A stretch of DNA of 64,000 nt from DHVE2 group archaeon (lineage in GTDB: Archaea > Thermoplasmatota > Thermoplasmata > Thermoplasmatales > Aciduliprofundaceae), in assembly GCA_027023265.1 (NCBI GenBank), contig JALVVV010000018.1:62001-126000 (forward strand), written 5' to 3'. This document shows positions 42,875-47,808 of this stretch, piece by piece. Position 1 is the stretch's first letter, and each line of letters starts with the position of its first letter. A program made the position numbers and the translations under genes. The notes beneath the pieces were generated by a model. The model did not search any database, was not told the origin of the DNA, and saw nothing but the letters and a program-made list of their open reading frames with translations.

Positions 42875-44098
42875 CTAAGAAGAAAGGCTATTAAGAACTT
42901 TACGAGTAGGAAACGCAATTACAAGCATAACAATACCAGAAAGGAAAATTACCGCTACTGAACCAAGCAAATCCACAAGGTATCCACCTGCCAAAATGGA
43001 GACCACATTAATTGCACCCCTAAATAAAGAACGCACTGAATAAAAACGACCCATTATGTTTCTGGGCACTGCTTTTTGGAAAATGGTCATGAACCCATCC
43101 ATTTCAAGGGTAGATGCGAAGGTGGACATAACAATCAGAATGATAAACAAGCTTATTTTATAAAAATAAATAGAGAACAAAACAGGAATAATCGCAATAA
43201 GCATTGTTAAAATACCCTCGTACACCACAGAATTTACCGCATATTTATCTGCCATTTTTGGCTCTAAGAACCTGTGCATAATTAAAGGAACAATTACAAA
43301 TAGGAGAGCGCTTAGAGAGCTGTAAGCTCCGTAAATAAAAGAGGACATTTTCAACATATCGAAGCAGTATGGAATGTACGCAGGTGTCTTTGTGATAACA
43401 ACAAATGTGAATACCAAATCGTAAATCAGAATCAAGTGCAGAAGAGAAGGTCTCTTTTTTAGAACTTTGAAAATCTCGGAGTATTTTACATCTTTTTTAT
43501 CACGAACATCGCTAACCTCCGGAACTTTGGCAATAGCCCATAATATAAGTGCAATAATGTAGAATGCAAATACAATAAGTAGCGCCACGGAAAAAGAGAG
43601 ATACGCGTATAAATACGCTCCCAAAAGGTATGCAATAAAGTATGTGATTCCGATAGATATCACCCACAAATTGTTTGCGTACATTAGATTCACATCACCT
43701 ACAACACTGCGCACGGATATCGTGTAATCCACTCTAAAATAGCTCTCAAAAAACAAGAGAAGGGAGAAAACAGAGATGACCCATAACAAACTGCTTGCAA
43801 AACAAAGAGGAAACAGAGATAATATTGAGAGAGAAATGGCCAACAATCCTAATTTGTATTTAGAACTCCTATCTACTAGAGTGCCTACCACAGGCGATAG
43901 AAAAGAAGGAATTGCCGACATGAGCAGGTAAGGAATAGATGCCATTAACGCAGAACTGTAAGTATGCCACAATGATAAGAGAATGTACATCATAAATAGC
44001 CCTATACCAGTGCTCAGAGATATATTAGAAAAATAAATTGCAAAAAATTTGGCTGGCAGTTTAAATTTCAAAAACCACCACTCCTTGAAAAAATACAA
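42875..44098 (-). CDS. MFS-type membrane transporter
   Basis: 407 residues with 11-12 hydrophobic segments. The first intracellular loop (SPVVGTLVDRSSKYKLGL) is a degenerate MFS motif, and RNIMGRFYSVRSLFRG in the second half matches the repeated motif. The substrate is unknown. It is convergent with the UbiA gene and divergent from the H-NOX-like gene. Confidence 0.8.
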   Translation of the reverse strand: MYFFKEWWFLKFKLPAKFFAIYFSNISLSTGIGLFMMYILLSLWHTYSSALMASIPYLLMSAIPSFLSPVVGTLVDRSSKYKLGLLAISLSILSLFPLCFASSLLWVISVFSLLLFFESYFRVDYTISVRSVVGDVNLMYANNLWVISIGITYFIAYLLGAYLYAYLSFSVALLIVFAFYIIALILWAIAKVPEVSDVRDKKDVKYSEIFKVLKKRPSLLHLILIYDLVFTFVVITKTPAYIPYCFDMLKMSSFIYGAYSSLSALLFVIVPLIMHRFLEPKMADKYAVNSVVYEGILTMLIAIIPVLFSIYFYKISLFIILIVMSTFASTLEMDGFMTIFQKAVPRNIMGRFYSVRSLFRGAINVVSILAGGYLVDLLGSVAVIFLSGIVMLVIAFPTRKVLNSLSS

Positions 44099-44230
44099 CT
44101 ATTTCCTCCGTCACACCAGAACGCCATCTCACCCATTTTAACCATTCATATAATCAATAAGACAACATATTAAATTTGCGTTGAGATTTGAGACATGCTC
44201 CAAAATATTAAAAACAAATTTGCGGGAAAA

Positions 44231-44243
44231 CTTTTTAATATTA
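44231..44243 (+). promoter_or_regulatory. TATA box of the H-NOX-like gene
   Basis: CTTTTTAATATTA is centred 25 nt before ATG 44262. It supports this start rather than the upstream in-frame TTG at 44181. Confidence 0.55.
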
Positions 44244-44261: not shown

Positions 44262-44798
44262 ATGCTTGGAATGATGATGACGGCTCTCGTTGAATACATA
44301 AAGTACAAAGGAGGCTCCTTAGAGATGGACAAACTGGAAAAGGAATACGGGGCACCCATAAAATTTCAGTGTGAGAAAAACTATCCCGAGGAGGATTTTG
44401 TTAGATTAGCTGCGTCAATTCGCAAGGTATTGGGCTGTACGAGCGAGGAGGAGGTTTGTGAATGCCAGCACCAGTTCGCAAAGTTCATGCACCAAATTAT
44501 TCTTAAAAGATATCCTGCCATAGTATCTAAATACAAAACTTATACAGATCTGCTTTCTAACATAAAAGAAGCTCACAGCCAGATACCCTTCATAAAGAAC
44601 TCGGAAAAACTATGGTCAGAGAGAAGAGGTGAAGACCTAATAATACACTACCGCTCCCCCACTAAATTTGACTGCTTTTTCGACGGCATGTTAAAGGAAT
44701 TCGCAAAGCAATATTCCACCAAAATTGAAATAAAGTACGAGAAAAAGATGACAAAAGGGGATGATGAGACTGTGGCTCTTGTGAGGATTATCAAGTAA
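44262..44798 (+). CDS. H-NOX (haem NO/O2-binding)-like protein
   Basis: 178 residues, the usual H-NOX length. It aligns from memory along its length with bacterial H-NOX. The start is MLGMMMTALVEYI; YPAIVSKYKTYTDLLSN is followed by IKEAHSQI, where His105 matches the proximal haem ligand. DLIIHYRSPTKFDCFFDGML matches the YxSxR haem-propionate region, with Y130 and S132 kept and the Arg replaced by Thr134. Extra cysteines (C37, C59, C66, C68, C138) are unusual. H-NOX proteins sense NO or O2 through haem. The partner is not clear: next is ahcY, on the same strand 30 nt away. Confidence 0.65.
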   Translation: MLGMMMTALVEYIKYKGGSLEMDKLEKEYGAPIKFQCEKNYPEEDFVRLAASIRKVLGCTSEEEVCECQHQFAKFMHQIILKRYPAIVSKYKTYTDLLSNIKEAHSQIPFIKNSEKLWSERRGEDLIIHYRSPTKFDCFFDGMLKEFAKQYSTKIEIKYEKKMTKGDDETVALVRIIK

Positions 44799-44828: not shown

Positions 44829-46037
44829 ATGCAAGGCAAAGAAAAGCTCGAATGGGCAATGACCCACATGGACGTCCTCTCTGAGATAAGGGAAGAATTC
44901 TTAAAGAAAAGGCCTTTTAAAGGGCTGAAAATTGGCATGGCCCTGCACGTTGAAGCAAAGACGGGCATTTTGGCGCTTACCCTTCGGGACGGCGGAGCAG
45001 ATGTGCGCCTGGCATCATGCAATCCTCTGAGTACCGATGACGAAGTTGTGGAAGCGCTAAGAGCCGATGGATTAAATGTTTACGCCAGGAAGGGAGAAAG
45101 CAGAGAGGAGTACTACGAGAATTTGCACAAAGTTCTGGAATATGAGCCAAATATTATAATCGACGATGGCGGTGACCTTACTACATTGCTTCACGGTGAG
45201 TACTCACACATTGAAATCATGGGTGGCAACGAGGAGACCACAACAGGAGTTATGAGATTGAAGGTCATGGAGAAAAAGGGAGTGCTTCGTTTTCCAATGT
45301 TCAATGTAAATGACGCAAAGATGAAGCACCTCTTCGATAATCGCTACGGCACCGGCCAGAGCACCCTGGACGGAATCATGAGCGCGACGAATTTATCCAT
45401 AGCGGGCAAAACTGCGGTGGTAGCAGGCTACGGCTGGTGCGGACGGGGTGTGGCAATGCGCATGAGGGGCATGGGCGCTAATGTCATTGTTACGGAAATA
45501 GATGCAGTGAAAGCAATAGAAGCGCGCATGGACGGTTTTCGGGTAATGCCAATGATTGACGCAGTTAAAGAAGCGGATATTATTGTCACAACCACGGGAA
45601 TGAAAGACATTCTGAGAAAAGAGCATTTTAAAGAGATTAAAGACGGGTGCATTTTAGCAAATTCCGGGCATTTTGACAACGAAATAAACAAAAAAGATTT
45701 GGAAGAGATGGCAAAGAGCAGAAAGAGAATAAGAAAGTACGTGGAAGAGTTTAGCCTCGGTGATAAAAAAGTGTATCTCTTAGGAGACGGTCGGCTGATT
45801 AACCTGGTAGCCGGGCAGGGACATCCCGTTGAGATAATGGACATGAGCTTTGCCATCCAGGCTTTGACTGCCGAGTACATCGCATCTCATAACTCTCTCG
45901 CACCCAGAGTGTACCCCGTGCCAGAGGAAATTGACGAGCTCGTGGCAAAATTGAAACTCAAAGCAATGGGCATAAAAATAGACAAGCTTACAGAAGAGCA
46001 AAAAAGGTACTTGGAAGAGTGGAAAGAAGGAACATGA
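44829..46037 (+). CDS. ahcY: Adenosylhomocysteinase
   Basis: 402 residues. It has the substrate-binding [20 protein letters not shown] and [20 protein letters not shown], the NAD loop [13 protein letters not shown] and NSGHFDNEI, and the C-terminal tail ends near RYL. It hydrolyses S-adenosylhomocysteine left by the many methyltransferases in this window. It lacks the roughly 40-residue insert of some bacterial enzymes, as expected for archaea. Confidence 0.96.
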
Positions 46038-46039
46038 AG

Positions 46040-47101
46040 TTAATTCAGTTTCACGCGCTCTACCTGAAGCCTATCCCATGTGGGATACTCTTCCACTTCG
46101 TACGCATCCCAGGGGATTTCGAGAGCTATTTCTTCAAGTATGTAAGGAGAGATTTCCACTCTATTTCTCTCTCTGTTTATTCCCATTAAATTCTCCGGCA
46201 CCTGAAAATTCTCCCTGAGATACTGGTAAATTTCCTCTAAATTTTCGCCATGGATAACCCCCAAAATCAGAGTGGCATCGTCGGTGAGCTCCTCGTACTC
46301 CTTCTTGACATTTTTTCCTCTTCTCAGTAACCGCCGGCGCATCTGCACCCCATCCTTGAAAGAAGAGGAGCAATAATGAACAACTATGTCCCAATCCCTG
46401 TCCACAATTCTATATGCAACTTCTTCGCTGCCCTTGACCGCCGAAGACACGTCGTTTTTCGGCTCGTAGCCCCTCGCATTCAACTCGCGGTAATTGGTCT
46501 CCGAGAACTCGAGCTCATTTAGATTCACAAACACGCCTTTCTCGTTTGCGAATTTTACCAATTCCACCAGCTCTTTTTCCATGTCCGGAAGAACGGGAAC
46601 TTCAATGCCCACGCTCATGCCTGATTCGAGAGCCCAGTCAATTCTCTTCTCGTATATGCTTCCCAGCATTTTTGTCCAGAGCTGTGGAGGAGGGTGAAAT
46701 CGGATTTCGTCTAGACCCGCTGCGGATAATTTCTCTATCTTTTCTTTGCTTCCAGATGCAGTGTATAAGTGGATATGGTGCTCTTCCCCGAAATTATCCT
46801 TGAGAAGATGTATATAGTGCACCACGCGGTCCACCATCTCCATGGGGTCTCCCCCTGTTATTCCCGTGCCCTTCGCCTCTATGAGCCTCGCTTCTAAAAG
46901 AACATCTTCATCGCTGTGCACTGGCATCTCGTCCGCAAATACCACATCTTTATTCATTTTCTCTGCACTAAGAGGGCAGTAAAAGCACCCGGCATGGCAA
47001 ATTCCCGTCACAAATAGAACCATTTTAGCGCCTTCTTCGCATAGCTTGCAGCCTTCCACCACTGGTTTGTTGGTGGCAGAACCATTAGGAAGCAGAATCA
47101 T
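46040..47101 (-). CDS. Radical SAM protein (COG2108, PFL-activase-like)
   Basis: 353 residues from ATG 47101. Two cysteines (C18, C21) precede the radical SAM motif CHAGCFYC (C35, C39, C42). GITGGDPMEMVDRVVHYI, HHIHLYTAS and the HPPPQLW segment follow. The reaction is unknown. The open frame extends to 47146 and would add a false hydrophobic N-terminus, but the TATA box GATATATAAA (47121-47130) lies inside it, 25 nt before ATG 47101. Confidence 0.8.
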   Translation of the reverse strand: MILLPNGSATNKPVVEGCKLCEEGAKMVLFVTGICHAGCFYCPLSAEKMNKDVVFADEMPVHSDEDVLLEARLIEAKGTGITGGDPMEMVDRVVHYIHLLKDNFGEEHHIHLYTASGSKEKIEKLSAAGLDEIRFHPPPQLWTKMLGSIYEKRIDWALESGMSVGIEVPVLPDMEKELVELVKFANEKGVFVNLNELEFSETNYRELNARGYEPKNDVSSAVKGSEEVAYRIVDRDWDIVVHYCSSSFKDGVQMRRRLLRRGKNVKKEYEELTDDATLILGVIHGENLEEIYQYLRENFQVPENLMGINRERNRVEISPYILEEIALEIPWDAYEVEEYPTWDRLQVERVKLN

Positions 47102-47120
47102 AAAACAAGCAAGAAAAGCG

Positions 47121-47130
47121 GATATATAAA
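47121..47130 (-). promoter_or_regulatory. TATA box of the radical SAM gene
   Basis: The minus strand reads TTTATATATC, centred 25 nt before ATG 47101. It fixes a leaderless start. Confidence 0.55.
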
Positions 47131-47142
47131 CCATGCGACCTT

Positions 47143-47808
47143 TCAATCAACCCTGCCAAATGCCCAGAAAGTTGGTACGTAGAGCAAATTTCCGTATCCT
47201 ATATTCCCTTCCAAATTTAAAATCCTCTTTTCAAATTCAATCATTTCTATCATATCTTTATGTGATGTGATGAGAGGAACCGTACCCATCTCAAAATCGT
47301 CAAATAATTCGGAGAAAAGCCCGAAAAGATTGAGCCCCGCATCAGGATTCCCTCCTCTTTTCAATATAAACTCCCTGCTATTCTCTGCAAGACTTCTCAG
47401 AAATGAAGAATCGCATACCGCGCCGCTCCAGTACGGCTCGGCAAAAATGGCCACGTACTTTTTAGACACGCGACGCATTTCATTCAGGATAACCTTCGGC
47501 TCTTTGTTCCACATTAAAAGGTAATTACCGTAAACCAGATCGAAAGATTTATCAGGAAAAGGAATGCGCTTTGCGTCTCCAAAAAAAGCGTCCAAGCCCC
47601 GATTCTTTGCACAGTTCACCTCAGAAATAGCCGAGTCTATACCTGCAACATACTGTACGCCCTTCATATTTTCCATCACGTAACCACAACCGCACCCCAC
47701 TTCAAGGGCAGATGTGACACCACGCATACGGCCAAGCAGGTACCTGTGCCAGTTCTTCATCCACTCCGCCTGAGCTTTCTGCAAATTAACCGGAATCTCG
47801 CCGCTCAT
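47143..47808 (-). CDS. Class I SAM-dependent methyltransferase
   Basis: 221 residues with motif I ALEVGCGCGYVMENM, the acidic loop VAGIDSA, DAFFGDAKRIPFPDKSFDLVYG (UbiE/Methyltransf_11 pattern) and VILNEMRRVSKKYVAIFAEPYW. The substrate is unknown. It lies 41 nt upstream of the radical SAM gene, which has its own promoter. Confidence 0.8.
   Translation of the reverse strand: MSGEIPVNLQKAQAEWMKNWHRYLLGRMRGVTSALEVGCGCGYVMENMKGVQYVAGIDSAISEVNCAKNRGLDAFFGDAKRIPFPDKSFDLVYGNYLLMWNKEPKVILNEMRRVSKKYVAIFAEPYWSGAVCDSSFLRSLAENSREFILKRGGNPDAGLNLFGLFSELFDDFEMGTVPLITSHKDMIEMIEFEKRILNLEGNIGYGNLLYVPTFWAFGRVD

Follow-up and report, generated by a model that had tools for sequence, protein, structure and literature searches.

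H-NOX family proteins with altered haem-contact and hinge residues in one genus of DHVE2 archaea

The window analysed here, a stretch of 64,000 nucleotides from a DHVE2 group archaeon, encodes a protein that can be placed in the H-NOX family by profile and predicted fold, and that belongs to a drifted subfamily so far seen only in a single DHVE2 (Aciduliprofundum-related) genus. Judged by alignment, this subfamily lacks two sequence features of canonical haem-binding H-NOX: the complete YxSxR motif, in which the Arg is replaced, and the Pro together with the hinge glycines. H-NOX is a haem-based gas-sensing domain described from bacteria and animals. Haem anchoring in H-NOX is usually ascribed to the His and the whole of YxSxR, and signalling to Pro/Gly-dependent distortion and the hinge. 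A natural lineage that conserves His, Tyr and Ser only makes it possible to test separately what retaining haem requires and what signalling requires; the DHVE2 proteins likewise allow a test of what gas or redox sensing is like in vent archaea without haem synthesis.

Profile and predicted fold

The gene and its immediate surroundings are these:

42875..44098, minus strand: MFS transporter, the divergent neighbour (PF07690, E=6.4e-22)
44233..44240, plus strand: TTTTAATA, resembling a TATA box, 22-29 bp ahead of the ATG; a motif at least as frequent in the locus as expected by chance
44262..44798, plus strand: H-NOX (HNOB) single-domain protein, 178 aa (Pfam HNOB, AlphaFold2, Foldseek)
44829..46037, plus strand: adenosylhomocysteinase, AHCY (NCBIfam TIGR00936, E=2.8e-184), starting 30 bp after the H-NOX stop

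The reading frame opens with the ATG at 44262, which is the common alignment start of all relatives (MLG/MIG); with a start at the in-frame TTG at 44181, the protein could be longer by 27 residues. The HNOB profile PF07700 matched it at E=2.5e-15 and 57.2 bits, against a curated Pfam cut-off of 25.5 bits, over model positions 2-162 of 163. It was the sole Pfam family above cut-off, and it also matched all eight tested members of the DHVE2 clade. The closest PDB sequence was the H-NOX of Shewanella woodyi (E=2e-5). AlphaFold2, run with eight related sequences, returned a model with a pLDDT of 90.6 and a pTM of 0.86, and a Foldseek search of the PDB placed H-NOX structures, both bacterial and from the sGC beta domain, at ranks 1-46, with top scores of TM 0.82-0.83 (E 4.6e-11). 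The initial annotation had proposed an H-NOX-like protein from its length of 178 residues, His105 and a YxS as in bacterial H-NOX; all of these are present and aligned, and the profile and the predicted fold confirm the family assignment.

Altered residues across the clade

The residues of interest in the window protein are H105, Y130-x-S132 and T134, along with C37, C59, C66, C68 and C138. In an alignment of ten intact DHVE2 sequences with 16 canonical H-NOX, bacterial and archaeal, the proximal haem-ligating His (H105), the Tyr and the Ser are identical in 26 of 26 (10/10 DHVE2, 16/16 canonical). Invariant columns number only 15 of 178, and three of the four motif positions are among these (P ~0.002 under random placement). 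The fourth, the Arg of YxSxR, is R in all 16 canonical sequences and T or N in all ten from DHVE2, so that the Thr134 singled out earlier as replacing the Arg that contacts the haem propionates is real, and a clade-wide trait instead of the quirk of one gene. Lys135, next to it, is Lys in 9/10 DHVE2 sequences.

A similar pattern is found at the Pro and the glycines. The position of window L117 holds Pro in 16/16 canonical sequences and L, I or V in 10/10 from DHVE2; we take this Pro to be the residue that, in bacterial H-NOX, is in contact with the haem and distorts it. The first hinge (FG) glycine, G73, is G in 15/15 comparison sequences and A in nine of the ten DHVE2 proteins, while G146 has become E in nine of ten. 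The window protein and its orthologue retain the second hinge glycine, G142, where the other eight have Q or E.

The ten intact sequences form a single clade (support 100/100) whose stem measures 2.44 changes per column; long branches leave its exact placement among H-NOX unsure. Two close pairs show that these genes are under purifying selection, with a dN/dS of about 0.13-0.16 for L003/L011 and about 0.08-0.11 for L012/L013; between the window gene and its orthologue, dS is saturated for a formal dN/dS.

Compared with the bacterial stand-alone H-NOX of Shewanella oneidensis, S. woodyi and Nostoc, the DHVE2 proteins share length, fold (TM 0.76-0.83), proximal His, the Tyr and Ser of YxSxR and the N-terminal Gly3, but have T/N for Arg, L/I/V for Pro, Ala for a hinge Gly and a shorter segment from His to Tyr.

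Distribution in the genus, family and phylum

Relatives of the protein occur in DHVE2 group archaeon MAGs. A sensitive search found H-NOX copies in seven of the eight genomes of the genus, with at most three intact per genome, and no intact copy in ten other genomes of the family; the PF07700 tally had undercounted the genus, the alignment search adding copies in G001 and G002. The host genome of the window (1.64 Mb, 99% complete) holds three intact genes, namely the window copy, L003 (54% identical) and L001. G002 has one intact and one stop-broken copy, and G008 a marginal match only, with stops (E=6e-4). H-NOX copies are gained and lost inside the genus. The broken copy (L073, G002:C71:14208-14714, and L016) has six in-frame stops, and its counterpart in the window's genome is the intact L001.

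That the protein is unusual because it is archaeal, as first suggested, is not supported: canonical H-NOX are present in other Thermoplasmatota and in one haloarchaeon. Of 390 Thermoplasmatota genomes sampled, 17 had an HNOB match above cut-off; the strong matches (E 1e-29 to 1e-41) all lie outside the DHVE2 genus, and those whose sequence was inspected have the full YxSxR motif. The haloarchaeal case is a Natrinema plasmid protein, WP_226007972.1, annotated as 'heme NO-binding domain-containing protein'. In these canonical archaeal HNOB proteins YxSxR, the Pro and both Gly are all intact, and they cluster with bacterial H-NOX in the tree, whereas those of DHVE2 differ. H-NOX in archaea as such is therefore already known, and the novelty is the altered form of the DHVE2 lineage; our literature search found no paper on the biochemistry of archaeal H-NOX.

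In many Thermoplasmatota HNOB also gave weak matches, at about 20 bits, which we discarded; two that were inspected (L008, L009) are S1-domain proteins, presumably eIF2-alpha, which we take to be a recurrent, weak false match. The Natrinema gene itself overlaps a gene of the pyridoxamine 5'-phosphate oxidase family and has PAS-domain proteins on both sides (L080:3001-4658).

Haem supply

The DHVE2 hosts appear, from their gene content, unable to make haem. Profile searches of 18 family genomes, single-contig ones included, found neither HemB nor HemC (11/14 control genomes were positive), and no AhbD match above cut-off, a 311-bit hit in G000 falling short of the 500-bit threshold. Nor was there an above-cut-off match to cytochrome b in the family; no second haem protein was found there, cytochrome b being the one haem-protein family tested. 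A literature search on DHVE2 and haem returned nothing.

Would this make the protein haem-free? We dropped missing haem synthesis as proof of that, because the 14 other H-NOX-bearing Thermoplasmatota used as controls (G091 and G298 among them) are equally without HemB, the sampled hosts of canonical H-NOX resembling DHVE2 in this respect. Cytochrome b is present in 10 of those 14, which points to uptake of haem or to a route not yet recognised; since HemB is absent yet cytochrome b is found in most of these relatives, uptake without synthesis is plausible in the phylum, and scavenged haem is possible in DHVE2 hosts too. Missing synthesis merely deprives the protein of one ready supply. The 311-bit AhbD score belongs to a 508-aa radical SAM protein (L083:1384-2910) with counterparts in most family genomes.

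Proposed function and competing readings

Perhaps the protein is a stand-alone sensor or regulator of H-NOX fold, from a divergent subfamily, that holds haem or a similar tetrapyrrole on His105 with altered anchoring, a reading that we put tentatively at just short of an even chance. The cofactor would be taken from outside, Tyr130 and Ser132, perhaps with Lys135, would contact the propionates instead of Arg, and gas (NO, CO or O2) or a redox change at the iron would alter the protein surface, the glycine-hinge motion of bacteria probably being replaced by another output. Consistent with this are the HNOB match, the H-NOX fold, the invariance of His, Tyr and Ser, the three or fewer intact copies per genome, a dN/dS of about 0.1 in two close pairs, the adjacency to AHCY in three genomes, the presence of histidine kinases, and cytochrome b in most HemB-less H-NOX relatives. 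Against it count the loss of Arg (10/10), Pro (10/10) and hinge Gly (9/10), and a family with no HemB, HemC, above-cut-off AhbD or cytochrome b; also, L001, L003 and L004-L006 have no AHCY adjacency, which may thus be incidental. The earlier suggestion that the protein may bind haem differently is sharpened by the loss of Pro and hinge Gly and the absent haem-synthesis genes.

That haem-contact and hinge residues were lost in concert throughout the clade, that the stem is long (2.44 changes per column) and that neither haem synthesis nor cytochrome b was found in the family could also point to an H-NOX without haem, its fold re-used for another ligand or for regulation by protein binding, with His105, Tyr and Ser kept structurally or for the new ligand. 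A precedent is the sGC alpha subunit, whose pseudo-H-NOX domain does not bind haem (PMC8196705) and, like the DHVE2 proteins, combines the H-NOX fold with a damaged haem-binding motif. However, the sGC alpha subunit has lost its His or YxSxR, whereas the iron-ligating His is kept in 10/10 divergent DHVE2 copies, with Tyr and Ser intact, and these are free-standing proteins that, as aligned from MLG/MIG, have no pocket-blocking N-terminal extension. We regard this haem-free reading as a serious but somewhat improbable one. A sensor based on cysteine redox or zinc, comparable to the H-NOX of Vibrio cholerae or Caulobacter, is unlikely. Zinc and disulfide sensing by H-NOX is established (PMC7108781, PMC12329717), and the window protein shares with those proteins its fold and its richness in cysteine. 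All five cysteines are indeed there, as the initial annotation said, but they are common only to the window protein and its orthologue L010a (67% identity); C59 and C68 recur in L003, L011 and L010b, and in all other copies most of the five are missing, a patchiness on which we rejected a cysteine metal site as a family trait. They also lie away from the known zinc site: Shewanella C139, C164 and C172 align with window D137, K162 and T170, of which D137 and T170 are invariant in DHVE2 copies. Three cysteines with a His or Gln were not found at the positions of Shewanella C139/H161/C164/C172, and no DHVE2 copy has Cys at the three cysteine ligands, so these proteins do not fit the known zinc/disulfide mechanism; a private cysteine site in the window's subgroup is possible. 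We grade the haem, haem-free and cysteine readings in this way because strict conservation of His, Tyr and Ser is set against the concerted loss of haem and hinge residues. Finally, the first non-H-NOX structure in the Foldseek list, Thorarchaeal TRAPPC3, shares the superfold and raises a V4R/TRAPPC3-type ligand-binding or tethering protein in place of H-NOX. This reading is already disfavoured and very improbable indeed, with a TM of 0.53 against 0.82 for H-NOX, HNOB and not V4R as the only above-cut-off Pfam family, and the H-NOX His, Tyr and Ser retained; V4R/TRAPPC3 was the best match neither in structure nor in profile.

Gene neighbourhood

H-NOX and AHCY probably form an operon. The spacing of TTTTAATA would suit a leaderless archaeal transcript; a sigma-70 and terminator scan, not suited to archaea, stayed at chance level. 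The order H-NOX-AHCY occurs in three genomes (the window's, G001 and G007), with two tandem H-NOX genes before AHCY in G001. A radical-SAM gene lies divergent and upstream of H-NOX in G001 and G007, and likewise at L003 in the window's genome; in G005 and G010 it adjoins AHCY with no H-NOX between, and in G002, where this H-NOX copy is absent, the MFS gene directly adjoins AHCY. The simplest history would be an insertion between radical SAM and AHCY, followed by tandem duplication and then a split in the window's genome. Other copies are located elsewhere, by PEPCK, SRP RNA or HisS, and the AHCY link is therefore limited to one H-NOX subgroup.

If haem is held as proposed, the output could act on the SAH hydrolase, whose gene is probably transcribed together with H-NOX, or on a histidine kinase encoded at a distance in the genome. 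HisKA kinases are present elsewhere in the window's genome, and no kinase or c-di-GMP gene adjoins H-NOX, a further difference from the bacterial stand-alone proteins. Could the subfamily instead sense another ligand independently of haem, in hosts without haem synthesis, its AHCY-linked copies controlling SAH hydrolase and hence the methylation cycle? We consider this improbable.

Beyond AHCY in the window lies a radical SAM protein (46040-47146, minus strand), with a hydrophobic N-terminal stretch preceding it and no specific NCBIfam family above cut-off. In G005 and G003, the H-NOX copy has an archaeal SRP RNA gene a short way upstream (L004:2078-2390, L006:1079-1391), and the mechanical ORFs called there are not genes.
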